This document shows, piece by piece, positions 19,152-37,657 of a stretch of DNA of 64,000 bases. The notes under the pieces are model-generated. The model did not search any database and was not told where the DNA came from. It was given only the letters and a program-made list of their open reading frames with translations. The position numbers and the translations under genes are program-made. The DNA is from Cryobacterium algoricola. Lineage in GTDB: Bacteria; Actinomycetota; Actinomycetes; Actinomycetales; Microbacteriaceae. Where the stretch lies: the NCBI RefSeq assembly GCF_004402485.1, contig NZ_SOFG01000024.1, positions 1-64,000 on the forward strand. The letters are read 5' to 3'. Each line of letters begins with the position of its first letter. Position 1 is the stretch's first letter.

Positions 19152-19228
19152 CGGGCTGTAGCGCAGCTTGGTAGCGCACCTGACTGGGGGTCAGGGGGTC
19201 GCAGGTTCAAATCCTGTCAGCCCGACCA
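19152..19228 (+). tRNA. tRNA-Pro(GGG)
   Basis: This is a full 77-nt cloverleaf with encoded CCA. The acceptor is CGGGCTG/CAGCCCG, the D stem GCGC/GCGC, the anticodon stem CCTGA/TCAGG with loop CTGGGGG (anticodon GGG), and the T stem GCAGG/CCTGT. Its 3' half is the left attachment site of the element that follows. Confidence 0.97.
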
Positions 19229-19270
19229 AATGTCCCGGAAACTCAAGGGTTTCCGGGACTTTTTGGTTAA
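19191..19270 (+). repeat. Left attachment repeat (att)
   Basis: This 80-bp direct repeat starts in the anticodon arm of tRNA-Pro and ends at GGTTAA after the terminator. It pairs with 37184-37263, with 6 mismatches. It restores an intact tRNA, so the crossover lies within the identical stretch. Confidence 0.9.
19232..19264 (+). terminator. tRNA-Pro terminator
   Basis: An 11-bp stem (GTCCCGGAAAC / GTTTCCGGGAC), a 6-base loop and TTTTT follow three bases after the tRNA CCA. It is part of the 80-bp direct repeat. The other copy carries a compensated variant of the same hairpin. Confidence 0.92.
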
Positions 19271-19405
19271 GAGAATTGACTACCCCATCACAAACTCACC
19301 ATTTACCCCTCTCCGGAGCCGCTGAGGCGGCCCTCCCGTGCGAGGTGCCGACGTCCTCCTCGGTCCATCCCGATTGTGCGGGAATGTGGCGTGCACCTTC
19401 TGGGT

Positions 19406-19660
19406 ATGAGCATCCACGACGAGTACCCAACTTCCCCTCCCACCGACGCCTGGGGTATGGAACCCCTGATGGACGTTGCCGAGTTGGCGTCCTACCTGGG
19501 CATACCGATCTCCACGGTCTACGACTGGCGCGTGCACGGCAAAGGTCCGACGGCCTACCGGTTCGGCAAGCACCTGAAGTTCGCCGTCTCCGATGTGCGG
19601 GCCTGGATCGCCCAGCAGCGCGACCCCTCCACCCCGCCCAGGCGCACCGATCGGCGGTGA
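19406..19660 (+). CDS. Excisionase-like helix-turn-helix protein
   Basis: This 84-aa protein has a MerR/excisionase-type winged helix: MDVAELASYLGIPISTVYDW followed by AYRFGKHLKFAVSDVRAWI. Such proteins direct excision together with the integrase or regulate it, and this one stands 6 bases before the integrase gene. Starts at 19376, 19406 and 19457 are in frame; none has a strong ribosome site, and the domain begins near residue 23 of the chosen start. Confidence 0.85.
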   Translation: MSIHDEYPTSPPTDAWGMEPLMDVAELASYLGIPISTVYDWRVHGKGPTAYRFGKHLKFAVSDVRAWIAQQRDPSTPPRRTDRR

Positions 19661-19666
19661 GCTGAC

Positions 19667-20854
19667 GTGCCCCGGCAACGGTTGAGCATCGGCACCTTCG
19701 GCGACATCAGCACCCGCAAGTCGCCGACTGGCCGGTACCTGTCGCGGACCCGCTACCGCGACTGGGACGGCCACGCGCGTCTGGTGCAGGCCAGCGGTGC
19801 CACCGCCAAGGCTGCAGAACGGGCACTGAAGAGCAAGCTCGCCAACCGGGATCTGTTCCAACCGGCGGACACGACTCTCAGCCCGGACAGCCTGTTCAGT
19901 GACCTGGTGAGCTACTGGTTGGAGGACATCGACCTCGAGGGCCGGATCTCAAGGACCACCCGGAACCTCTACGAGCGCAACATGCGCACCCTGGTCTCCC
20001 CGGCGTTCGACAACCTCGCCCTGCGGGAGATCGGCGTCGCCCGGTGCGACAAGTTCATCAAACAGCTCGCGAAGATCTCCTACAATCGCGCAAAGCAGGC
20101 CCGGGTGGTTCTGCGGCTCGCCCTGGAGCTGGCGGTGCGGCACGAGGTTCTGCCTCGTAACCCGATGGACCACGTCGCCCGCCTCCACCGCGAGCCGCAC
20201 ATCCCCGCCGCGCTCATGGCGCCGGAGGTCAACGTGATCCGTGCCGCGATCGCCCAGTGGGAAAGCGCCGCCGACCACACGTCCGGCCCCAAACCCGACG
20301 GACAGCTCGGCGCGATCATTGAGGTGATGCTCGGCACCTCGGCCCGGATTGGTGAGGTCCTCGCCATCCGCCGCCGGGACATCGACATCACCAGCCCCGT
20401 GCCGTCCATTCGCCTGGCCGTTACCATCGTCAGCCGCAAGGGGGAGCAGACCTTCCGGCAGGACCACCCCAAGACCGCCAAGTCCACTCGGGTTGTCGCC
20501 ATCCCCACCTTCACTGCCGACGCCGTCCGCCGGCGACTCGCCAAGTTCGGGAGCATGGGCTTGGATGACCTGCTGTTCCAGTCCCGGGACGGCACCCCGC
20601 TGACGACCGCGAACGTGCGCAGGCAACTCCGACAGGTGCTCGAGGGAGCCGGCATCAACGGAGTGACCCCACACATGTTCCGCCGCACGGTCGCGACCGC
20701 GGTTCACGACAACGCCAGCATCGAACTCGCCGCAGAACTCCTCGGCCACACCGACACGAGGGTCACGGTGATGCACTACATTCAACGCAGCGAACTAGTA
20801 AACCCGGCGACCGCAGCGCTCCTCGACCGGGCCTTCGCGAAAGACAAAGACTGA
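19667..20854 (+). CDS. Tyrosine integrase of the element
   Basis: This 395-aa phage-type integrase has an arm-binding AP2-like N-terminus, a SAM-like core-binding domain (residues about 75-170) and a catalytic domain with Arg in GTSARIGEVLAIR, MFRRTVATAV preceded by His, LLGHTDTRVTVMHY, and the nucleophile Tyr in that last motif. It catalyses recombination between the element and the 3' end of tRNA-Pro. The start is GTG, six bases after the excisionase stop, so the two are co-transcribed. Confidence 0.95.
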   Translation: MPRQRLSIGTFGDISTRKSPTGRYLSRTRYRDWDGHARLVQASGATAKAAERALKSKLANRDLFQPADTTLSPDSLFSDLVSYWLEDIDLEGRISRTTRNLYERNMRTLVSPAFDNLALREIGVARCDKFIKQLAKISYNRAKQARVVLRLALELAVRHEVLPRNPMDHVARLHREPHIPAALMAPEVNVIRAAIAQWESAADHTSGPKPDGQLGAIIEVMLGTSARIGEVLAIRRRDIDITSPVPSIRLAVTIVSRKGEQTFRQDHPKTAKSTRVVAIPTFTADAVRRRLAKFGSMGLDDLLFQSRDGTPLTTANVRRQLRQVLEGAGINGVTPHMFRRTVATAVHDNASIELAAELLGHTDTRVTVMHYIQRSELVNPATAALLDRAFAKDKD

Positions 20855-21252: not shown

Positions 21253-21325
21253 AATACCCAGCGGGGATTGAACCCGCAACCTCCAGAGTATCAATCCGGC
21301 GCTCTACCAATTGAGCTATGGGCCC
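21253..21325 (-). tRNA. tRNA-Ile(GAT)-like gene carried by the element
   Basis: The minus strand folds as a 73-nt cloverleaf: D stem GCTC/GAGC, anticodon stem CCGGA/TCTGG with loop TTGATAC (anticodon GAT), T arm GCGGG-TTCAATC-CCCGC. The acceptor stem is poor: GGGCCCA against TGGGTAT gives four good pairs, two G-T pairs and one G/A mismatch. No CCA is encoded. It has its own terminator. Either a divergent functional tRNA or a decaying one. Confidence 0.7.
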
Positions 21326-21582: not shown

Positions 21583-21771
21583 ATGACCGCACTGAATCCC
21601 ACGTATGTGCGCAACGCGACCGCGCCTTCGCCGAATGCGTGCAGGTGGTGTGGTCGCGATGATCGGCGCCACTCGATCGAGTGGGCTAAGTCTGTCGGCT
21701 ACCACAGCTGGGCCGAGCCGACCCTGGCCCAACGACGCGCCCGCATGCTCGCCCGTCGGTCGCGTCAGTAA
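21583..21771 (+). CDS. Small CxxC protein of the element
   Basis: This 62-aa basic protein has one CRWCG pair and a His-rich stretch (RDDRRHSIEW), perhaps a half zinc ribbon, and ends in Arg-rich RRARMLARRSRQ. AGGGAGG seven bases before ATG 21583 is a strong ribosome site, which is why I accept so short a gene. Similar small proteins occur in actinobacterial phages and integrated elements as far as I recall. It converges on and slightly overlaps the OLD nuclease gene. Function unknown. Confidence 0.7.
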   Translation: MTALNPTYVRNATAPSPNACRWCGRDDRRHSIEWAKSVGYHSWAEPTLAQRRARMLARRSRQ

Positions 21772-23531
21772 GCTGCACGAGCAATCAATAGCTCGAAGAC
21801 TTCGCGCAGCTTCTCCGGAACCTCCTCGCGGGACCGAAGCCCCAGCGCCAACGCCGACATGATCTCGGGCTTGCCGCTGACCTCGATCGTGCTGTTGTCG
21901 CGAATCATCCGCTCGACGTCCCTGCTGAATTTGCCCGAGCGGTAAAGGGTGAAGTCAGCTGGTACCCATTCTCGACCATCCGTTCGTGGCCACTCTCGGT
22001 TGGCGCACGCGGCCCATTGAACATCCGTGAACGTGTCTTCGAACTCTCGGACCCCGACTGTAAGGACGTCGGTTCCAAGAGTCAGCTCATGCACTGAGAG
22101 TCGTGGCTCGGAGAACATCCTCAGATCGCGGGAATCCTCGTCAACTACAAGCAGGACATCTCTGTTGTGGGCTTTCAAATATTGAGCGAAACGAAGAGCT
22201 CCATCATTATTGTCGCAAGGCCAAATGGCGATTCCGCACGCCTGCAGTTGACGACCGGTGGCCAGTTTGAACAGCACCGGAAATGCCCTACTCTCCGTAG
22301 CTCCTTCCACACCGACGAACAGTCGTTCATGTAGTAGCACGGTATTCCTAAGCCCAAGAGAAGCAGCAATCGCTCCTAAATGCGCGCCGACTTCGCTGTC
22401 GTCGGCAATCTCGTCCGCGGTGGTCCGGCTTGTAACGTGTCGCAGGTGGACCACCTTGGAGATGTCGACCCCGTCTATAAGGTTCATCGAGTGAGTGGCC
22501 ACGACGATGCGGACATTGGGAAGTACTGCCTGCTCATCGAGCAGGTTCATGAATCCTCGCTGGTTGCTGTAGTCCAGGTGGGTATCCGGCTCGTCGTAGA
22601 GAAGGACAGTGTCCTCGTTCGATCCGCTCAGAAGGCCAGCATTGAACTCCCACACCGCTAGTGCGATGCGTCGAGAACGCCCAGTGCCCGATTGTCCTAG
22701 GTGGACCTGTTCGCCTCGCGCGTTGACCGCACTCACTTCAATAGATTTCAGCCCGCTGTCGAGTCGTACGACGGGGTGGATTTCAATCTCACCGATGTCC
22801 GAACATTGGCGTTTGATGTGAGCGCGAAGGTCTTCGGCGTCACTTGTTACGCGCTGCTGAAGGACCCTTGTGAGACCCGTGATGTCGCCCTTGATTGTGT
22901 CGTCCTCCGTGTGTGTGGTGTAGGACGTGCGAAGAGTTGTCAGAATGGCGTCCTCGGGGTTCTGGGTCGATGTAGCATCGAAACGCTGCACACGGGGTAG
23001 CGACCGCTTCAAGTCGGTTGTCGCCGGGATCCACTTATCTATCTTGTCCGCGTCCGGAATTAGATCCTCAAGTCGCGCCACCAAGTCTGGCTTGAGTCCG
23101 GCCTCTGATAGACCGAGTCCGCTGAGTCGGAACTTCAAGGTCTTAACATCTTGACCCGCCACATCTTGCAATCGCTCATCGATGGGAACGGCGGTCAGGA
23201 CCTCAAGATTTGTCCCGCTTTCCCTATACGCGCGGCGCACCCTCACGAGGCGAGGTAGTCCTAGCAGTGTTATTTCCTCAGGTCGCAACAAGAACTGTCC
23301 CTCAACGACGGTTTCGGACACTCGAGAGGGAGCGCCGTCCGGACCCGGCTCTCCGTAGGTCCGGTCTCGATCGCTTAGCTTGATTGCATCCAACAGAAAC
23401 GCGATCGCGTCCAAAACTGCGCTCTTGCCGGCATCGTTGTGCCCGGCCAGAATGGTCGGCGAACCGACGGCAATTGTTAGGTCCGACTCGATGGAGCGAA
23501 ATCCTCGGATTGTGATGTTGTCAAGCAGCAT
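21765..23531 (-). CDS. OLD-family ATP-dependent nuclease (AAA/ABC ATPase plus TOPRIM)
   Basis: This 588-aa protein has an SMC/ABC-type ATPase in its first 370 residues: Walker A GHNDAGKSAVLDAI near residue 30, signature-like LGQSGTGRSRRIALA, Walker B TVLLYDEPDTHLD, and the His switch in VVATHSMNL. Residues about 400-500 form a TOPRIM domain, with the Glu in FVGVEGATES and the Asp pair in LLVVDEDSRD, that should bind metal for DNA cleavage. OLD nucleases include P2 Old and the GajA subunit of Gabija. No helicase partner of the GajB type is next to it, so it is a single-gene (class 1) type. Defence against phage or rival elements is likely from family and place, not shown. Confidence 0.88.
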   Translation of the reverse strand: MLLDNITIRGFRSIESDLTIAVGSPTILAGHNDAGKSAVLDAIAFLLDAIKLSDRDRTYGEPGPDGAPSRVSETVVEGQFLLRPEEITLLGLPRLVRVRRAYRESGTNLEVLTAVPIDERLQDVAGQDVKTLKFRLSGLGLSEAGLKPDLVARLEDLIPDADKIDKWIPATTDLKRSLPRVQRFDATSTQNPEDAILTTLRTSYTTHTEDDTIKGDITGLTRVLQQRVTSDAEDLRAHIKRQCSDIGEIEIHPVVRLDSGLKSIEVSAVNARGEQVHLGQSGTGRSRRIALAVWEFNAGLLSGSNEDTVLLYDEPDTHLDYSNQRGFMNLLDEQAVLPNVRIVVATHSMNLIDGVDISKVVHLRHVTSRTTADEIADDSEVGAHLGAIAASLGLRNTVLLHERLFVGVEGATESRAFPVLFKLATGRQLQACGIAIWPCDNNDGALRFAQYLKAHNRDVLLVVDEDSRDLRMFSEPRLSVHELTLGTDVLTVGVREFEDTFTDVQWAACANREWPRTDGREWVPADFTLYRSGKFSRDVERMIRDNSTIEVSGKPEIMSALALGLRSREEVPEKLREVFELLIARAAY

Positions 23532-23797: not shown

Positions 23798-26700
23798 GTG
23801 ACGGTGTCAATGAGGGTGATGAGCGCCGGCGATGGCTACAAGTACCTGCTGCGCACCGTCGCTGCCGGCGACGGGCAGCGGTCGCTGTCCACGCCATTGA
23901 CCCGGTACTACAGCGCGAAGGGCACGCCCCCGGGCCGGTGGATGGGAAGCGGTCTCCCCGGCCTCGGCTCCGGTCACATCGTCGAGGGTGCCGAAATTAC
24001 GGAAACCCAGCTGCAGCGATTGATCGGGTTGGGGCGCGACCCTGTCGATGGCAAACCTCTCGGCCGCGCCTATCCCGTGTATCGAAGCTCAGTAGAATCG
24101 GCGCCGACCGGCCGTGGCCCGGAGCCGGTTACTCGACGGCGCGCCGTCGCCGGGTACGACTTCACCTTCTCGATTCCGAAGTCGGCGAGCATTCTCTGGG
24201 GCGTGGCAGATGCGGCGACACAGTCGCGGATCGTGCAGGCGCATCATGCCGCGGTTTCTGAGGTGATCGCGTACATGGAGCGCGAGGTCGCGGCGACGCG
24301 GACCGGGGCCACGGCTCACGACGGGGCCGTTGCGCAGGTCGAAGTGACGGGCCTGATCGCGACGGCGTTCGACCACTTTGACAGCCGGGCCGGCGACCCG
24401 CACCTGCACACGCACGTCGTGATCAGCAACAAGGTGCAGACCGTACTCGACGGCAAGTGGCGCTCGCTCGACGGCCGCCCGATGCACGCGGCCGTCGTCG
24501 CACTCTCCGAGCTGCACGAGTCCTTGTTCGCCGACGCTCTGACGCGATCACTGGGCGTGCGGTGGGAGATGCGGGAGCGGGGGAGGGATCGCCACCCCGC
24601 CTTGTCGATCAGTTCCGTTCCGGAGACGCTCGTCGCGGAGTTCTCAACCCGGTCGCGGCACATCGACATCGCGGCGGACGCGCTGATCGACGCGTACCTG
24701 ACCAGGCAAGGCCGCAGACCAGGCCCAGTAGCGATTATGAAGCTTCGGGCCCAGGCAACGCTCACCACCCGGCCCGCGAAGAAAGTGCACTCGCTTGCCG
24801 AACTCGCCGCGGCCTGGCGCGAACGAGCGGAGCGAGTGCTCGGAGACGACGCAACGGAGTGGGCGACCGCGTCGGCCAGTAACTCTCGGGCGCCGATGTT
24901 GCGTGCCGAGGATGTGCCGCGCAAGGCGATCGATGCGCTCGGGTTGGGCGTGATGACGTCGGTGAGTGAGAAACGCACGACCTGGCGGCATTGGAATCTC
25001 GCCGCCGAGGCCGCACGTCAGATGATGCAGCACCGCTTCGCATCTGCGTCTGATCGTGAAGAAGTCATCAGCCTCGTCGTGGCTGCCGCCGAGCGGGCCT
25101 CGTTGCGGATCACGCCACCCGAGCTCGCGCCGAGCCCCGTCGCGTTCCAGCGAACCGACGGCACGTCGGTCTTTCGCCCGAAACACACCACGCTCTTCAC
25201 CTCGACACAACTGCTTGACGCGGAATCTAGGCTGCTGGAACGCGCGGCGGACTCGACCGGGCCGCGAGTTGCGGCGGCGATGCTCAGCGCAACCTCGCGC
25301 ACGCGGCTGCCGGGTGGCGCAATGCTTGCCGACGACCAGCTCGCGGCCCTCACTGCGATCGTCGATTCCGGGCGGGTAGTTGATGTGCTGGTGGGGCCGG
25401 CCGGTGCGGGCAAGACGACGGCGATGAACGCGCTGCGGCGTGCGTGGGAGGCGGAGCATGGTACGGGGTCGGTGGTGGGGCTCGCTCCGTCGGCCGCCGC
25501 CGCCCAAGTGCTGGCGGAGGACCTCGGCATCACGACCGAGAACCTGGCGAAGTGGTGGCACAACCACCTCGACCACGGAGCGACGTTTGACGCCGGCCAG
25601 CTCGTGATCGTCGACGAAGCCTCCCTGGCGGGCACGCTGTCCTTGGATCGGATCACCGCGCTCGCCGCGAACGCCGGCGCCAAGGTTCTGCTTGTCGGCG
25701 ACTACGCGCAGCTCCAGTCGGTGGACGCCGGCGGCGCGTTCTCCTTGTTGGTCCACCGCCGGGTGGATGCCCCCCGAGCTCGTCGACGTGCACCGCTTCA
25801 CACATGAGTGGGAGAAGACGGCCTCCCTCGGACTGCGCCAGGGCGACCCCGACGCGATCGACCACTACATCATGCACGACAGGGTGAGCGGCGGTATCAC
25901 CGAGTCGATGGCGGATGCCGCCTACTCGGCCTGGTGCGCGGACGCTCGAGCCGGCAAAGTGACGGTCCTGATCAGCGACTCGAACGAGACAGTCGCATCC
26001 CTGAATGCGCGCGCCCGCACGGGACTCATCCTCGAGGGTCGCGTCAACTCGGTTCGCGAAGTCGCTCTCCATGACGGAAACCGTGCGGCCGTCGGCGACG
26101 CGGTGATCACCCGCCGGAACGACCGGCAGCTGCGCAGCGCCCGGTCCTGGGTGCGCAACGGCGATCGGTGGACCGTGGTCGGAGTGAACCAGAACGGCTC
26201 GGTCGACGTTCGCCCGCAAGGCCACCGGTGGGGGAGCGCGGTGCTGCTTCCCGCGGACTACGTCAAGGACCACCTCGAACTCGGCTATGCCGTCACGTCG
26301 CACCGCGCGCAGGGCCTGACGACCGATACCGCGCACGTCGTCGTGACCACGGGCATGACGCGCGAGAACCTCTACGTCGCGATGACGCGAGGTCGCGAGG
26401 CGAACACCGCCTACGTCGCCGTCGACCGACCCGATGTCGCCCACGTCGGGCCGCAGCCGGGTGGCGACCAGGCCGCGACGACACGCGGCGTCCTCTGTGG
26501 GGTTCTTCAGCACATCGGTGCCGAACTCTCCGCGCACGAGACGATCGTGGCGCAGCAGGATGCCTTGGGTTCGGTGGCGCAACTTGCGGCGGAGTACGAG
26601 ACCATCGCGGCGGCCGCACAACGCGACAGATGGGCGGCATTGGTACGCGGCAGCGAGCTCCCACCCGGCCAGGCCGAGGAGGCCATCAAGTCGCCTGCAT

Positions 26701-27296
26701 TCGGGGCGCTGGCGTCGGAACTCCGGCGAGCCGAAGCCCACCATCTCGACATCGAGAGCCTGCTTACTCGAACGGTGGCAGCACGCGGGTTGGACGATGC
26801 CCAGGATGTTTCGGCCGTTCTGTGCTCCCGAATAGCGACGGCGGTCGCGCGTGACGCCCAAGCGGTCCGCCCGCGCCGGATGCCGCGACTGATCGTCGGG
26901 CTCATCCCGGAGGCAACTGGACCAATGACCACGGCGATGCGCCAGGCTCTCAATGAGCGCCGTGATCTGATCGAAGCGCGAGCGAGCGCCGTCCTCGACA
27001 GGGCTCTGCTCGGGGGAGCCAAGTGGACTCGGGAACTCGGAGCCGTCCCAGGACGACAGATGACGAGCAGTTGGAGACAGCAGGCGCGCACGGTGGCGGC
27101 ATTCCGGGACCGCTACGCAATAGTCGGTATGAGAGTGCTCGGCCCCGCCCCACAGACGGAGACCGAGCGACGCGATACCGCTCGAGCTCGTACCGCGCTG
27201 GAGGCCGCGAAGCGGATCTCGAACGGACGAGACGCCTTTGCGACACGGTTCCTGGGCCGCACGACGCGGCCTTCGCCAGTTCGTATCCGATTTTGA
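23798..27296 (+). pseudogene. MobF-type conjugative relaxase/helicase, frameshifted
   Basis: This should be one protein of about 1165 aa. The first part (23798-25807) has the N-terminal tyrosine region GDGYKYLLRTV, the HUH metal motif GDPHLHTHVV near residue 200, and the helicase Walker A VGPAGAGKTTAMNAL with Walker B QLVIVDEASLAG. The second part, in the next frame up to 27296, continues with ELVDVHRFTHEWEKTASL, helicase motif SHRAQGLTTDTAHVV, VAMTRGREANTAYVA and a helical tail. The break lies at 25770-25775, where a run of six C (five would restore the frame) separates VDAP from PELVDV. GTG 23798 has GAGGGGAGGA before it. Nicks and unwinds oriT in conjugation when intact; could also be a sequencing error. 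Confidence 0.88.
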
Positions 27297-27787: not shown

Positions 27788-28396
27788 CGGGCCTCCTCCC
27801 GCCAGAACATATCGTCAGGCAGATACTGAGCCTAGCCGTGCGCGTTAACCCGTCGGTGTCCGTTCGCCTTGGACTCTCGAACCACCATTGCGAACGAGCG
27901 GGCGCGGGCCCGGGGTTCGTCCGATCGCGCGGACGGGGCAGCTGGAAGCCTCAGGGCTTTCCCTCTGGTCCCCGTTGAAAGCATTCCGATGAGGCAGTAG
28001 TCGTATCTGTTGTTGCCACTGAATGGGGGGAGAGGTACATGAGCCGGTGCTGCAGACCCGCGCTGAACATAGTGCGATGCGCCAAAGCGCGTCGACGGCA
28101 GAGTGTGCGCCCGCCAATTTGGAGTACGCTCCATCAGGCTGTCAGGAGCCGCGTCTTACGTCGTAAATGGGGTTGAATTCGGATTCCTTGATAGGACTAC
28201 CGCTAGCCCAGGAGTCAAACCAGGCACTACTGCGACGACGCACTTCGGACAGGTCAAAAGAAAGGCCAAGTTGCGAGACACTTAGTAGGCCCGTCCGCAG
28301 TCGACGCGATCGGGTCAATCTCGCTATGCCACGTTTGTCATTGAATTTCATTGCCACGGCTTACGGCAGGCACTGCCGACTGGGGGAGAACCAATC
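27788..28396. other. Gene-poor stretch
   Basis: I see no convincing gene in these 609 bases. Short open frames exist on both strands but lack ribosome sites and sensible composition. The stretch holds the promoters for the minus-strand DUF1643 gene and the plus-strand gene at 28397. Confidence 0.5.
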
Positions 28397-29758
28397 ATGA
28401 CCGCCAACAACAGCAATGCGATCGTGCCTGTGTGGACACTCGCCACTGAAGAAGTCAGCCTTCCGAACCTCTTCGGCGAGGGGAACCTCACGCCCGCCCG
28501 TCTCGCTGAGCTGCGGACAGTCCTCGCGTCCCTTGCGGTGAGCCCGATCGCGACGCTGGAAGTCCACACGAAGGCGGACAGGCGCGCTCGGAGTGGTGGT
28601 ATCCGGCTCCACGCGGCGAGCCCGCTTGCTAATCAACTTTCTCAGCTCGTCTCCCAGACAGTGAAGTCTGGGGCAACAGCAAAGTCGGTTTCGCCGGCTC
28701 TAGACGCCGCTGCCGCCGGTGATGTTCTCTACCGGATGGTAGTTCCGGCCAAGGTCGCCGCACAGTTCGGTCAGGGGCTCGTCAAGCCGATGATTGCCAA
28801 AGGTGTGCCGGGAGGTATCTACGGCGGTTTACGTGATGCCGCCTCAATTGTCGGGAATGCCGCTTTCGTACCGGTCGCTGGGAAGGCCGCAACTGCCGGC
28901 GCTGGTGCGGCAGCAGCAGGCGCCGGCGGAGCAGTTGGAGCGGCGGGAGCCGCGGGTGGAGCAGTTGCGACTGCCGGAGTTATCACTGTGGCAGCGCCGC
29001 TCGTACTGATGGCCGTCGCCGTCGGTGTGAGCGCCTACGCCGAGCATGAGCGCCAGCAAGCCATTGAGCGAATAACAGATCTACTCCAGCAGCTGCACGA
29101 CAACGACCTTGAGAAAGAACGAAGCGAGCTCGACGGTTGCCGTGACGCGATCGACAAAGCCACCGCGGTCCTGCTCGACCAGGGGCGCATCGGCCCCGCG
29201 CTCGGCCTCGATTCTGCCGTTCACGCGATTAGTAAGTCGTTGGAATTGACTCGCCGTCGTCTATCGAAGTGGCAGGCGTCTTTGGCAAGTCTCCCGGAAG
29301 GTCCGGTTGAGCTTACGGCCCTCACAAAGGAATTCCCCGGCATCCACGAGGAGGGGGGAATCTTTCGTGCGCATCTCGAGCTCGCAAGGCTCACGATCGC
29401 TCTCAAGCGACGAGTGCTCGTGCTTCAAGCAGTCGAACAGGCCCAGATGGACGGTGGGAGTAACCCGTTCGCCAACTTCGTAAGCGCCCTTCAGGAAGAT
29501 GAGCGTCGCGTCAACGAACTGGAGTCCGCGCTCAGCTCAATACTTCTCCACCTGTCGACGCTCGAGCTCAGGCGCCACACTGGTTTGTTCCATCCTGTGT
29601 CCACGCCGGGAGAAGTGGACGCTCTTCTCCGCGCGGTGTACCGCCTACGCAATTTTGCCAATGATCTGAGTGTCGGCGGTACTCACGCCGACGTTGCCAT
29701 TGAGATCGAACGAAGCAATGACGGATCGCTAGTCGTGTTTCCCGCTGAAGCTGTTTGA
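28397..29758 (+). CDS. Protein with Gly/Ala hydrophobic core between helical domains
   Basis: I do not recognise this 453-aa protein. Residues about 150-215 form a long Gly/Ala-rich hydrophobic stretch (AGAGAAAAGAGGAVGAAGAA, then VITVAAPLVLMAVAVGVSA), like a glycine zipper able to enter a membrane. Charged, probably coiled-coil helices follow (about 216-400: ERITDLLQQLHDNDLEKERS, REDERRVNELESALSS-like). The start ATG has GGGGGAGAA before it, and a hairpin terminator follows. The plan (helices, Gly-rich hairpin, helices) recalls alpha-helical pore-forming proteins or membrane-remodelling proteins; this is a guess. It stands alone between defence-type genes. Confidence 0.75.
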   Translation: MTANNSNAIVPVWTLATEEVSLPNLFGEGNLTPARLAELRTVLASLAVSPIATLEVHTKADRRARSGGIRLHAASPLANQLSQLVSQTVKSGATAKSVSPALDAAAAGDVLYRMVVPAKVAAQFGQGLVKPMIAKGVPGGIYGGLRDAASIVGNAAFVPVAGKAATAGAGAAAAGAGGAVGAAGAAGGAVATAGVITVAAPLVLMAVAVGVSAYAEHERQQAIERITDLLQQLHDNDLEKERSELDGCRDAIDKATAVLLDQGRIGPALGLDSAVHAISKSLELTRRRLSKWQASLASLPEGPVELTALTKEFPGIHEEGGIFRAHLELARLTIALKRRVLVLQAVEQAQMDGGSNPFANFVSALQEDERRVNELESALSSILLHLSTLELRRHTGLFHPVSTPGEVDALLRAVYRLRNFANDLSVGGTHADVAIEIERSNDGSLVVFPAEAV

Positions 29759-29814: not shown

Positions 29815-30004
29815 AACGAGCGTCGACGAGTATCCGTTCCAAGTCATGAGCTGTCTGGTGGGGGACCAACCGCCACCAAGGCGAACGACGAAGGACCCGA
29901 GGGCTGCCGCCTCGTATCGGAAGGACCATCGGTCAGAGATCACCGTCCCGATGCCGGCGTCGGAAGGATGGGGCAGTGTCGCAGGTCGGGTCTAACCTTT
30001 TGCC

Positions 30005-30184
30005 ATGGACATCAATGTTGGTCAGCTCTTTCTTCAGTCCTTTATCGACGGCTTCGCTCTCGTCGCTCACGCGGGTTGGCAGATGATGGTGGACAACCCT
30101 TGGATGTTCCTGCTCTTGCCTGGCATTCTCCTGCTCGGGCTCGTCCCCAGGCGCGTCAAGCGCCGTCCGCGTCGCAGCTTTTGA
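30005..30184 (+). CDS. Small single-span membrane protein
   Basis: Reading from ATG 30005 gives 59 aa: MDINVGQLFLQSFIDGFALV, then a hydrophobic span PWMFLLLPGILLLGLV and a basic tail RRVKRRPRRSF. The positive tail after the span suggests a cytoplasmic C-terminus. Its TGA overlaps the TTG proposed as the start of the next gene, so the two would be coupled. No good ribosome site is seen. Function unknown; a membrane partner for the two HNH-like proteins downstream is possible. Confidence 0.55.
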   Translation: MDINVGQLFLQSFIDGFALVAHAGWQMMVDNPWMFLLLPGILLLGLVPRRVKRRPRRSF

Positions 30185-31140
30185 GCACCTCCAATCCCGG
30201 CGAGGTACGCGCCGCGGGTGAGGCCGACTCGCCTGCTCGACACGATCGCGCCGAGTCGAAGCAAATCGGAAAGTCGGGTTTCATCAGCTCCGTTGTTCGT
30301 CGGGGCGCTGCCCGAGGTATCCCTGAGGTCTATCAGGCCACGTTCACGATGGACGATGGCTCAATCCTTGAAACTCGAATGCCCACATTGAACGGGGTTG
30401 AGGCCACTGGCCATCATCTCCCTATGGAAATCGGCTACCTCGAATTCGGCGAGTGCCCAATCTGTCTTGAGACCACTCCCGGAACCAGAGAGCACGTTCC
30501 GCCGCAGTCCATAGGTGGCAATGTCATGACCCGAACCTGCGAACCCTGCAACAGCAAGTTCGGCAGCCTGTACGAACCGCATCTTCAGACTTGGTATAAC
30601 GGCTCGACGGGCCATATTCGGATCTCGAGCGGTGATGTACTCGGTCGCCGACACGGGGGCGAGTATCTCGTTCGGGAGACAGTGGATGGCAAGCCCGTGC
30701 TTTTCTCCACTGGATACGTCGATCCTTCGTTTCAGCAGATGCTGCTGAAAGGAAAATTTGAGATTACCTACCCCCTCTTTGATGATGTGGCATTTCGTTT
30801 GGCTGCGATAAAAACTGCCTATCTCGCGGCCTGCCTTTTCCTGAAGATGGTCCCGCGTACCGATAATGCGGACGCCCTCCGCGCCGAGTTGGTTGCTGCA
30901 CGCGATCACCCAGGGGACGGAGTATTCGCTCTGAGTCCGTTTCTGGAGTCGATCCGCGTCAGGCGAACCGCGGCAAATCCAGTACCAGGCGAAATTGCCT
31001 TTGTGCAGATGCTCCATGCTGACGACTCGATTACCTACGCGATAAGTTTCAACCGAGTCTTCTCGGTTGACTGGCCGCTGGATCCGATCCTTCTCGTGCC
31101 ACCCGGACAACCCGACAACCTCTCGGAGACCTCGAAATGA
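30181..31140 (+). CDS. HNH-like zinc protein 1 of a tandem pair
   Basis: This protein of about 319 aa has an HNH-type motif: CPICLETTPGTREHVPPQSI, then CEPCNSKFGSLYEPHL (CxxC...EH...CxxCN). This fits the treble-clef fold of HNH nucleases; EHVPP is the catalytic strand. The rest has no domain I recognise. The start is uncertain: TTG 30181 overlaps the previous stop, and ATG 30349 would also keep the motif. The open frame reaches back to 29968, but that part is not protein-like and contains the small membrane gene in another frame. The stop overlaps the next start (ATGA). Confidence 0.75.
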   Translation: MSTSNPGEVRAAGEADSPARHDRAESKQIGKSGFISSVVRRGAARGIPEVYQATFTMDDGSILETRMPTLNGVEATGHHLPMEIGYLEFGECPICLETTPGTREHVPPQSIGGNVMTRTCEPCNSKFGSLYEPHLQTWYNGSTGHIRISSGDVLGRRHGGEYLVRETVDGKPVLFSTGYVDPSFQQMLLKGKFEITYPLFDDVAFRLAAIKTAYLAACLFLKMVPRTDNADALRAELVAARDHPGDGVFALSPFLESIRVRRTAANPVPGEIAFVQMLHADDSITYAISFNRVFSVDWPLDPILLVPPGQPDNLSETSK

Positions 31141-32234
31141 CCGGTGGACGCGCCTGCGTGTTCTGCGGCAGTACCGGCACCCTCACCCGCGAGCATGTAT
31201 TTGGTGATTGGTTGAGCAAAATCGGGCTCGAAGACGTTCCTGTTCAGAGCGTCGCGGGCTCCCTCAATCAGATCGGGAAACGGATGGGGGAGTCGCGTCC
31301 GTTCCAGACCAAGGTGAAGAACGTCTGCGGCACCTGCAACAACGGTTGGATGAGCAGGCTAGAAACAGTTGCTCAACGCGTTCTCACTCCTCTAGCCCTC
31401 GGACAGCCGGGTCTCATAGAAGTCGCGGACCAGGCGCCGCTTGCTATGTGGATTCATAAGACAGCTTTGATGGCGATGTACCTGTCGTCTGCCGCGGACA
31501 GGGAGGCCGGCCACGGTGTACCGCCGTCCGAATACGCGTCGTTGTATCAACAGCGCGCAAGCATGGAACCGCTACCCAATTCCAGGTTTTGGATAGCTCG
31601 TTACACAGGTCGGCTGAGACTTGGAACGGTATGGGTTACTCCGGTGGCCGTCAACCAGGGCCTACCTGAGCCGGACTTCCCGCACGGCTACGCAATGACG
31701 ATAGCTGTTGGCGCAATTCTGCTTCATGGCGTCCGTTTCACCGATCTACCCTTCGCCGTGGATGTCGCGACTCAACGCACGCTAAGTGAGATTTGGCCTG
31801 CGAGCGACGATGTCGAATGGCCCGTCAGTATCGACGTCTCCGACGATGATTTCTTAGGTCTCGCCCAGGGCCGGGAGTTCGTCCTTGCGGAGAGAGAAAT
31901 GAGTCTCCGGCCGATGTCGTTCCTGATGGACTCGCCACAAAGCGAGCTCGTCGGGTTGATGGTTGAGATGCCGACCCCGTGTGGACAGGGACACACCATC
32001 TACTTCCCATCGGCGTTGGCTGAGGAGGGGATGCGGGGCAAGTTCCATTGGTTCAAGACCGAGTGTAAGTGTGGCATCGCGTACTTGGTGCACACCGAGC
32101 GAACAGGTGCCCATGTCAAGTCTGCAGGCGAGCCCGTGCGAATCGCTGTGGAGTACGACACGCTGGCTGGTTCTGAGCTCATTTACCGTGACTCTAGTTT
32201 CGAGTTCGGATTCAAGGAAGATGCCTCGCCGTGA
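31137..32234 (+). CDS. HNH-like zinc protein 2 of a tandem pair
   Basis: This 365-aa protein begins with CVFCGSTGTLTREHVFGDWL and continues with VCGTCNNGWMSRLE, the same CxxC...EH...CxxCN layout as the protein before it, though the rest of the sequence is different. A second Cys cluster near the end (CGQGH, ECKCGIAYLVH) may bind another zinc. The ATG overlaps the previous TGA. Two different HNH-like proteins made in fixed ratio suggest a two-subunit nuclease or a restriction-type defence; the target is unknown. Confidence 0.82.
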   Translation: MTGGRACVFCGSTGTLTREHVFGDWLSKIGLEDVPVQSVAGSLNQIGKRMGESRPFQTKVKNVCGTCNNGWMSRLETVAQRVLTPLALGQPGLIEVADQAPLAMWIHKTALMAMYLSSAADREAGHGVPPSEYASLYQQRASMEPLPNSRFWIARYTGRLRLGTVWVTPVAVNQGLPEPDFPHGYAMTIAVGAILLHGVRFTDLPFAVDVATQRTLSEIWPASDDVEWPVSIDVSDDDFLGLAQGREFVLAEREMSLRPMSFLMDSPQSELVGLMVEMPTPCGQGHTIYFPSALAEEGMRGKFHWFKTECKCGIAYLVHTERTGAHVKSAGEPVRIAVEYDTLAGSELIYRDSSFEFGFKEDASP

Positions 32235-32430: not shown

Positions 32431-33153
32431 CTACTCTCGCGACTCCGCCTCCAAGTCGACCCTCATGTCGAAGTCGGCTTCCTCCAAGCGATACTGACGA
32501 CGTTCCTCCGCTTCCTCGCGCGCCAGGCGTTCCCGTTCGCGCTGCGCGCGCTCTTGCGCTTGACGCTCTAGAAATGCATCCCATGTACTCAGCGTCTGCT
32601 TCAACGAATCAAACTGCTGAGCGTGTCCGCTTTCGGGTTGTTGCCCCCGCGAGATTGCTAAGGCAAGCTCTGCTCCAAGCAGAAACGCATCGTCAACGAA
32701 TCGCCGGGTGCTAATCGACCCGCTGAACGGCGCCAAGGGCTGGTAGTCCAGGAGTGAATCAACGATGGCAATGAGGCGGCTTCGGGCCTCATTGTCCCGC
32801 ACCCGCCCCACCTTCATTCGAATCTGCTCCTGAAGCTCGGTGTCCCACTTGCGGTCGAAATAGGCATTGAATTCGGATTCGCCGCCCTCACCGAACTGCA
32901 GCACATGACGCCGGCTCTCGAAGAACAACGCTGCGATCTCTGTGCCGATTACAGCATCCGCCTCACGTGCTTCCGTTTCTTTGGACTCTTCCGTGGCTTC
33001 GTCTTCACGTTGGGCCCGTGCTGCCTCTCGAATAGCTTCTGCGTCACGTCGTTGCCGCTCCGTCCTTGCCAAGAGCAGCCCGCTAAGCGAAGCACCGAGG
33101 AGAGTTCCGACTATTGCAATGCTGGCGGTGATAATCGGCATCCAGTCGTCCAT
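32431..33153 (-). CDS. Membrane-anchored coiled-coil protein
   Basis: This 240-aa protein has an N-terminal membrane span (IITASIAIVGTLLGASLSGLL), then a charged coiled coil (RTERQRRDAEAIREAARAQR), a helical middle, and a second Arg/Glu-rich coiled coil at the end. Single-span proteins with a charged cytoplasmic helix domain occur in several phage-defence loci, but I do not recognise the family. It stands alone on the minus strand, about 200 bases from the convergent HNH pair. Confidence 0.75.
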   Translation of the reverse strand: MDDWMPIITASIAIVGTLLGASLSGLLLARTERQRRDAEAIREAARAQREDEATEESKETEAREADAVIGTEIAALFFESRRHVLQFGEGGESEFNAYFDRKWDTELQEQIRMKVGRVRDNEARSRLIAIVDSLLDYQPLAPFSGSISTRRFVDDAFLLGAELALAISRGQQPESGHAQQFDSLKQTLSTWDAFLERQAQERAQRERERLAREEAEERRQYRLEEADFDMRVDLEAESRE

Positions 33154-33543: not shown

Positions 33544-34575
33544 TCAGAACGGCGTGTCGTCTCCATGCTGGCCGAGTCGCTCCCACGGGTCCTGCTCTTG
33601 GGACGGCACTGCGGCTGTCTGCGCCTCGCGTTCGAGGCGCACGCCCTCTTCGCGTGCAGCCGCGGTGTCGGCCTCGCGCCTTTCGCGCGCGGCCACGATG
33701 TCGCGTGGCTCCCGGTTCGATAGCCGCACCATGAGCGCACCGACGACGTGCATCATGAGCCAAGCGTCCGCCTTCGTCACATCGCCCTCGCGATGACGGT
33801 GGGCGTTTCCACGGTCGGACCTGTCTGCGTTTACCCAACCAATTAGGGGCTTCATGAGAGAGCGATCGGCGGGACTAATGACCTTCTGGCGTTGCGCGTT
33901 GTCGAGCTGGTCGGAAACCGAGTTTCCTTCGACGCCGAGCGCCCGGAAGAACTCCTGAAGCGAGGTGGCCGCCTGCGTCAGCGCGACATCCGTCTCGCCC
34001 TTCGAAAGTCGCGTAAGCGCACTCTGGTATGCGTTGGACGCTGTGTTGAACACGGGGTCGTCGCCTAAGAGGATGGTCGCGGGCCGCAACACCTCGGAGT
34101 GCATTACGTAGTTCCCGCGCTCCTGGAATCGCCCGTCCTCGAAAAGCCAGTCGGCGCGGGCGTGCAGCAACCTGTCGTTGACAACCTCGATAAAAGCGTC
34201 GAGGTTGTACTCCGGCTCCACGTCGGGGCGGTTGCCGTACCCCGAGTCTTCCCACTCCTCGTCGTGGTCGGAGAGCCAGAGGAACGCGTTCACGACCGCG
34301 GCCAGAGCATCGAGTCGTTCGTAGTCGTCACCTTCACCACGCAGGCGGTTCGCGCTTACCCACACCTTCGAGTCGCGTTCACCTAGGCGCTTGTCGGCCA
34401 TGTCGAGCACCCGTCTCGGCATGTTCGTGAAGGTCTCCAGTGCGGCGATGACCTCGGCACCAACCGGGGTCGGACATCCGTCGAGCCAGGTGATGCCAGT
34501 CTCCAATTCCGCGACAGCTTGCTCACGGCGGCGGCGAAGCTCGGACGGCAGCGGGTCAAGGCGGGTATCTCGCAC
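33544..34575 (-). CDS. HEPN/Abi_C-like protein
   Basis: In this 343-aa protein residues about 180-300 resemble the Abi_C/HEPN type of helical domain: ALTQAATSLQEFFRALGVEG, a variable helix, then NADRSDRGNAHRH, where R-x6-H matches the HEPN RNase motif, and AWLMMHVVGALMVRLSN. The N-terminal 150 residues are helical and acidic without a known domain, and the C-terminus is a charged coiled coil. HEPN proteins of this sort act in abortive infection or as toxins. RNase activity is inferred from the motif alone. The gene is divergent from the M41-like gene, 123 bases apart. Confidence 0.72.
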   Translation of the reverse strand: MRDTRLDPLPSELRRRREQAVAELETGITWLDGCPTPVGAEVIAALETFTNMPRRVLDMADKRLGERDSKVWVSANRLRGEGDDYERLDALAAVVNAFLWLSDHDEEWEDSGYGNRPDVEPEYNLDAFIEVVNDRLLHARADWLFEDGRFQERGNYVMHSEVLRPATILLGDDPVFNTASNAYQSALTRLSKGETDVALTQAATSLQEFFRALGVEGNSVSDQLDNAQRQKVISPADRSLMKPLIGWVNADRSDRGNAHRHREGDVTKADAWLMMHVVGALMVRLSNREPRDIVAARERREADTAAAREEGVRLEREAQTAAVPSQEQDPWERLGQHGDDTPF

Positions 34576-37183: not shown

Positions 37184-37263
37184 TCAGGGGGTCGCCGGTT
37201 CAAATCCAGTCAGCCCGACCAAATGTCCCGGAATCTCAAGGGATTCCGGGGCTTCTTGGTTAA
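37184..37263 (+). repeat. Right attachment repeat (att), tRNA-Pro remnant
   Basis: This is the second copy of the 80-bp repeat. The T arm reads GCCGG...CCAGT, with a C/A mismatch, so it is not a functional tRNA part. The hairpin has two compensating changes (GGAAT...ATTCC instead of GGAAA...TTTCC) and a CTTCTT tail. Confidence 0.9.
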
Positions 37264-37657
37264 AGGATCTGACGAGAGCCCCCGCGCTACGCGAGCGTGC
37301 TAATCGAGGCACCCGGCGAAAACCGTAAAGCCCTACTGAACGTCTAGGCTCCTGAGGTCATCCGGGCGGTCGTGTCGAAGGTCTCGTGGACCTCTAGTTC
37401 GGCCGCGACGGGCAGCGTTAGAACTCACACCCGCGTGGGAGCGGAGTACGTCCGTGTCGAGAGCGGCATACGGGGTTCCCGGGGGCGAGCATCTCTTCGC
37501 TTCCCGAGTCGTCTGCGCTCACCATGAACGGCCGTAGCCTCGTGATTGCTGGGATGCCCGTTCCCCCACCCGTTTCGAACGGCCGCGGGGTTGAACGCTG
37601 CTCTTTCCAGCAATCCAAAACCTCCATCGAAACCGGGGGTGATACTACTGTTGCCGT
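37264..37657. other. Intergenic stretch after the element
   Basis: No gene or clear fragment is supported in these 394 bases. They separate the right attachment repeat from the histidine phosphatase gene and should carry its promoter. Confidence 0.5.

Follow-up and report, generated by a model that had tools for sequence, protein, structure and literature searches.

The window analysed here is a 64,000-nt stretch of a Cryobacterium algoricola contig (NZ_SOFG01000024.1, positions 1 to 64,000), within which a direct repeat of 90 nt (89% identical), including the 3′ end of a tRNA-Pro(GGG) gene, bounds a region of approximately 18 kb (Table 1). Downstream of a relaxase gene split between two frames is a gene encoding a DUF1643 protein, followed by three open reading frames that encode a 59-aa protein and two proteins with HNH-like motifs, here called HNH-A and HNH-B. 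The tRNA-Pro repeats, together with an integrase gene, bear out the proposal of an earlier note on this DNA that the three genes are cargo of an integrative element.

Table 1. Features of the integrative element and its HNH genes (positions in the window).
Feature	Position	Strand	Remarks
attL-like repeat	19191-19280	+	tRNA-Pro(GGG) 3′ part and downstream
HTH_17 protein, excisionase-like	19391-19660	+	Pfam HTH_17 1.5e-11
Tyrosine integrase	19682-20854	+	Pfam Phage_integrase 2.4e-18
OLD-like AAA ATPase with TOPRIM	21765-23531	-	Pfam OLD-like_TOPRIM 7.9e-8; PADLOC Old 4.9e-22
TrwC/MobF relaxase, apparently broken	23816-27296	+	two overlapping frames, 23816-25807 and 25692-27296; Pfam
TANNNT candidate -10 box (TAACCT)	29993-29998	+	6 nt upstream of the 59-aa ORF ATG
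59-aa ORF	30005-30184	+	hydrophobic stretch and basic tail; GC3 0.75
HNH-A, 319 aa	30181-31140	+	TTG start inferred; HNH_5 core at residues 92-139
HNH-B, 365 aa	31137-32234	+	N-terminal zinc/EH core at residues 7-76, beta-rich body, second Cys/His cluster C282, H286, C310, C312
attR-like repeat	37184-37273	+	90 nt, 89% identical to 19191-19280

The N- and C-terminal parts of the window relaxase are 66-67% and 55-61% identical, respectively, to relaxases of 1184-1188 aa that are encoded in one frame and adjoin HNH-B orthologues in three other loci (L025, L028, and L030). Compared with these single-frame homologues, the window relaxase is divided between two frames, and the element may have lost the capacity for self-transfer. 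A tRNA-Ile(GAT) gene is also found inside the element (21253-21325, minus strand), the five other matches to it in the genome being partial and 75-89% identical. A 27-nt direct repeat (81%) at 28160-28186 and 32854-32880 flanks the three genes and a gene for a 453-aa protein, and both of its copies encode a similar short peptide on the minus strand, perhaps the remnant of a duplicated gene. The 453-aa protein (28397-29758, plus strand) matches PADLOC LeoBC weakly (E 6e-4), and a 343-aa protein (33544-34575, minus strand) has a weak match, below cut-off, to STM4504/CBY_0614 (E 4e-4); both represent possible defence-type cargo.

The arrangement of three overlapping reading frames, with the 59-aa ORF ending where HNH-A begins, was confirmed. 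Both junctions consist of a 4-base overlap; at the first (TTGA) the stop codon of the 59-aa ORF (TGA, 30182-30184) overlaps the TTG of HNH-A at 30181, and at the second (ATGA) the TGA of HNH-A overlaps the ATG of HNH-B at 31137. The HNH-A frame is open upstream to at least 29968, and its start is placed at TTG 30181 because GC3 in this frame is low upstream of that codon (0.42 over 29968-30181, versus 0.75 in the 59-aa frame and 0.62-0.68 within HNH-A). Overlapping starts of this kind suggest coupled translation, a frequent feature of compact cargo operons that does not in itself demonstrate a complex. A leaderless transcript may begin at the 59-aa ORF (30005), since a TANNNT box lies 6 nt before its ATG and such a spacing is rare among the ATG codons of the element (a box 5-8 nt ahead in 2 of 223 on the plus strand); this is a hint only.

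The 59-aa ORF encodes one clearly hydrophobic stretch (residues 29-47; best 19-residue Kyte-Doolittle mean 1.7) followed by the basic tail, and a weaker one at residues 3-21 (mean 1.33). Its match to Pfam DUF7649 is weak (E 0.0062; 17 bits against a cut-off of 27). No homologue was detected on plasmids at E ≤ 1, and a search of 246 genomes returned weak matches in 13 others, the best at E 0.004. Eight of these were inspected (L100-L107) and rejected as counterparts, being short local matches within longer frames, matches running across a stop codon or, in L105, a match of 18 residues. The plasmid and genome searches thus gave no credible homologue of the 59-aa ORF. A membrane-linked double nuclease is not supported, the membrane link raised as a possibility in the earlier note depending on this ORF.

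HNH-A matches the Pfam family HNH_5 (PF14279) with 34.7 bits, above the gathering cut-off of 27.5, and is, as classified by this match, a rare HNH_5 gene. Counting its own genome each time, it was detected in 1 of 57 genomes of the genus, 2 of 229 of the family, 1 of 396 of the order and 4 of 296 of the phylum, one of these last four being spurious (L017, a weak match inside a sensor-kinase-like gene). The single occurrence among the genus genomes, its own, suggests that HNH-A is probably recently acquired cargo. The relative in the other family genome (L167) is 35% identical over about 156 residues, and more distant relatives are represented by L016, in which the EH of the motif reads ED, and L018. 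A profile built from three HNH-A sequences matched 40 of 246 phylum genomes, the matches beyond the three built-in rows being partial, mostly limited to the zinc core, and left out of the count of relatives; L114 (E 1e-9) is possibly a genuine relative among them and has no HNH partner within the 1.8 kb examined. HNH-A was not found on plasmids or, at E ≤ 0.01, in 50,697 phage records, and no match in viral contigs was confirmed. Its structure model (pLDDT 32.7) is too poor for use.

HNH-B, in contrast to HNH-A, has no match to PF14279 up to E 1, and gave nothing above cut-off in Pfam and nothing up to E 1 in NCBIfam and PADLOC. Its residues 4-111 match PHROG 38451, a phage family of unknown function, at E 2.5e-8. 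A family profile run against the genome collection detected 163 relatives, of which the best 80 were analysed. Twenty of these 80 share 38-56% identity with HNH-B in the best segment (18 near-full-length and two partial), and the remainder, which align with HNH-B in its N-terminal part, belong by record title to many phyla. Residues C7, C10, E19, H20, C64, C67, N68, and W71 are invariant across 30 aligned relatives, and in 16 aligned orthologues (15 genome copies and the plasmid copy L010) C282, H286, and C310 are invariant and C312 is nearly so, a conservation from which a second metal site may be inferred. Classical HNH motifs have a middle Asn, which, as read by eye from the alignment, is not conserved among HNH-B orthologues. 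Among the 91 family loci in which the motif could be read, seven (L076, L082, L085, L086, L087, L094, and L095) have ED in place of the EH pair; these variants, together with that in the HNH-A relative L016, indicate that the presumed catalytic His is not shared by all relatives. HNH-B was detected in 7 of 72,556 plasmid records and, at E ≤ 1e-3, in 1 of 50,697 phage records.

An AlphaFold2 model of HNH-B (pLDDT 90.7) retrieved no convincing relative from the PDB (Foldseek best E 0.1; VIA-align best Z 3.4), and the missing match is no evidence of a new fold. Sequence searches of solved structures returned chance-level rows only, and the literature searches listed no paper that could be tied to the HNH-B family. 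The conserved family of which HNH-B is a member has no model in the libraries searched (Pfam, NCBIfam, and PADLOC).

The two HNH proteins had been described as sharing only a CxxC-EH-CxxCN zinc layout, and this description holds: BLASTP detected no meaningful similarity between them (best 15 bits), and a profile-profile comparison with hhalign aligned 49 columns, covering the zinc/EH core only (probability 81%, E 1.3e-5). Their common core appears to reflect true homology of the HNH domain.

Whether the two genes travel together was examined in 93 HNH-B loci with flanks of up to 6 kb, 75 of which extended 1.5 kb or more in each direction; the figure of 93 slightly overstates the independent loci, L002 and L039 seeming to be one place fetched twice, and it includes a weak match resembling a chance frame (L007). 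In tblastn searches against 98 loci, neither HNH-A nor the 59-aa protein was found beside any HNH-B relative. A loose HNH-type pattern that detects both window motifs recovered the HNH-B motif in 91 of the 93 loci and an additional match in 14, of which 12 were by eye zinc-ribbon-like or chance frames, so that inspection left a true second HNH gene near HNH-B only in L012 and L092, at a distance of 2-3 kb. The HNH-A relatives examined (L016, L018, and L167) are lone genes, with no second HNH motif within 1.5 kb on each side of L016 and L018 or about 7 kb on each side of L167 (read as L174); the L167 genome also carries an HNH-B-type gene, on a separate contig. The small number of known HNH-A relatives gives a poor sample of its partner preference. 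On these results a cassette conserved across genomes was rejected, no homologue of HNH-A or the 59-aa protein having been found in the flanks examined of the 93 HNH-B loci and the HNH-A relatives examined having no HNH-B alongside. The earlier note had inferred a fixed three-gene cassette forming a fixed-ratio complex, for which there is no support, the pair or triple occurring in no other locus examined; in the samples examined the two HNH genes are rarely together elsewhere, an outcome that the note itself had named as counting against its proposal.

Proteins within two genes of HNH-B were compared with PADLOC models (2023 release) in 19 non-duplicate orthologue loci, L026 and L027 having been dropped as near-duplicates of L025, and matches at E ≤ 1e-30 were taken as strong. 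Gene starts were approximate (an in-house script served as gene caller), neighbours under about 70 aa were excluded, and the scan covered 66 of 67 neighbour proteins, omitting L034:5784-6089, which is part of the HNH-B orthologue itself. Strong matches were found in seven of the 19 loci, namely PprDinG and PprPIWI of pPIWI-RE (L020), a type II methylase (MTase_II) with PDC-S14, the latter separated from HNH-B by 3 bases (L022), PDC-S19 (L029), SduA of Shedu (L031), GajA of OLD/Gabija (L033), HmaC of Hma (L035), and PD-T4-7 (L036). The defence gene is located upstream on the same strand, directly or one gene apart, in L020, L022, L031, L033, and L035. At least 11 of the 66 neighbour proteins (a count that includes a generic kinase in L020, with 25 of the 28 protein families listed) had such a match, versus 3-4 of 74 proteins from 20 random loci in 20 genomes (Fisher p 0.013-0.03), a control unmatched for mobile elements in which all matches were to broad families (E1-E2, C3a206, and WYL models). 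By locus the difference is not significant (7/19 versus at most 3-4/20; p 0.12-0.21), and the enrichment of defence genes around HNH-B appears modest. Of the earlier note's reading, a defence-type neighbourhood is supported for part of the HNH-B relatives; in the window, proteins within two genes of HNH-B have no PADLOC match at that level.

Relaxase genes form a second recurrent neighbour. An intact MobF relaxase homologous to that of the window lies directly downstream of HNH-B in 5 of 21 orthologue loci, or three when near-identical copies are removed (L025, L028, and L030, with L026 and L027 near-identical to L025), and in L037 the orthologue is directly upstream of a relaxase fragment; the flanks examined in the other 15 loci contain no such relaxase. 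L025, L028, and L030 share about 77% nucleotide identity with each other. A segment of at least about 9.7 kb carrying the HNH-B orthologue and the relaxase is 99.6-99.98% identical between L025, L026, and L027, which are from Microbacterium oxydans, Microbacterium sp. H83, and Leucobacter chironomi records, reflecting either recent transfer between genera or assembly contamination.

On balance these observations favour, with some confidence, two independently spread and usually solitary HNH genes joined in the cargo of the element, with HNH-B a probable anti-invader nuclease acting solo or alongside defence genes. Two genes of the HNH superfamily that spread separately would have met behind a small hydrophobic ORF in an 18-kb element integrated at tRNA-Pro. 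The N-terminal HNH-like zinc core of HNH-B would be the probable cutting part and its long body, with the second Cys/His cluster, the probable target-recognizing part; the protein would most likely act alone, or beside an adjoining defence operon, attacking incoming DNA as a metal-dependent nuclease. HNH-A would most likely be similar in action, but of a separate HNH_5 lineage. HNH-B is accordingly read as probably a portable, anti-invader nuclease of mobile elements, a defence role being likely, with HNH-A and the 59-aa ORF best read as its local companions. Rather than a new defence system, the cassette probably represents closely spaced cargo genes that came together by chance.

The defence neighbours would also suit a more specific proposal, regarded as unlikely, in which HNH-B is an undescribed portable nuclease module placed directly behind varied defence operons (restriction-like PDC-S14 with a methylase, pPIWI-RE, Shedu, OLD, and Hma) and before MobF relaxases, where it would serve as a common DNA-cutting back-up, the 59-aa ORF and HNH-A constituting one more host operon. 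A true three-gene defence system, with the small protein anchoring or sensing at the membrane and HNH-A and HNH-B cutting incoming DNA as a fixed-ratio complex, could account for the overlapping starts, the candidate leaderless promoter at the first ORF, the location in element cargo and the defence neighbours of some HNH-B relatives. It is nevertheless decidedly unlikely given that the pair or triple recurs in no other examined locus and that the 59-aa ORF has no credible homologue, and HNH-B orthologues are retained without HNH-A, so that the pair is not obligatory.

Loss of nuclease activity, leaving HNH-derived zinc-binding regulators or toxins, is very unlikely; the unconserved middle Asn of HNH-B, the ED variants in 7 of 91 family loci and a confident model with no notable fold match in the PDB are consistent with it, but E19, H20, and N68 are invariant in the 30 aligned relatives. 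Slightly below this in probability is a role for HNH-B as an accessory to conjugative transfer that cooperates with the MobF relaxase, for instance on the strand being transferred, the window copy being a remnant beside a broken relaxase. The placement of HNH-B immediately ahead of an intact TrwC relaxase gene in L025, L028, and L030 and of a fragment in L037, and the homology of the window relaxase to these, point that way; however, 15 of 21 orthologue loci have no such relaxase in the flanks examined, the loci with a linked relaxase appear to represent a single lineage of relatives, and in the window the relaxase is on the other side of HNH-B, 3.8 kb off. Free-standing homing endonucleases spreading themselves between sites, the least probable of these readings, would share an HNH core, a patchy distribution and varied neighbours with HNH-A and HNH-B. 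Both proteins are, however, rare in phages (the single HNH-B record and no HNH-A), and HNH homing enzymes are compact, unlike HNH-B with its long conserved body and second Cys/His cluster. The reading of two separately spread HNH genes is retained and the double-HNH cassette set aside, leaving as a smaller lead the conserved HNH-B family. Its window member has no model in Pfam, NCBIfam or PADLOC, and its full-length members are repeatedly found next to known defence genes and relaxases in records of Actinomycetota and Bacillota.

That no named defence system has this make-up, as the earlier note supposed, agrees with the result that the 59-aa protein, HNH-A, and HNH-B match no PADLOC model up to E 1. 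HNH-type nucleases linked to defence include Septu PtuB, Zorya ZorE, and those of the GmrSD type, but no partner of these kinds was recognized among eight window proteins scanned around the three genes. The closest described family is HNH_5, with which HNH-A shares the CxxC-EH-CxxCN core and a score above the gathering threshold, whereas HNH-B falls short of it (its plasmid relative L010 scores 17.2 bits, also below the cut-off) and its core is related by profile comparison only; both proteins have long extra regions beyond the 56-column model. Likeness to PHROG 38451 is limited to the N-terminal part of HNH-B. Among defence systems, the arrangement in L020, where the DinG and PIWI genes are immediately followed by an HNH-B orthologue, can be set beside pPIWI-RE, described as a three-gene system with a restriction-fold enzyme encoded by a third gene placed first (PMC3702460), whereas in L020, examined from DinG onward, the additional gene is of the HNH type and is placed last.
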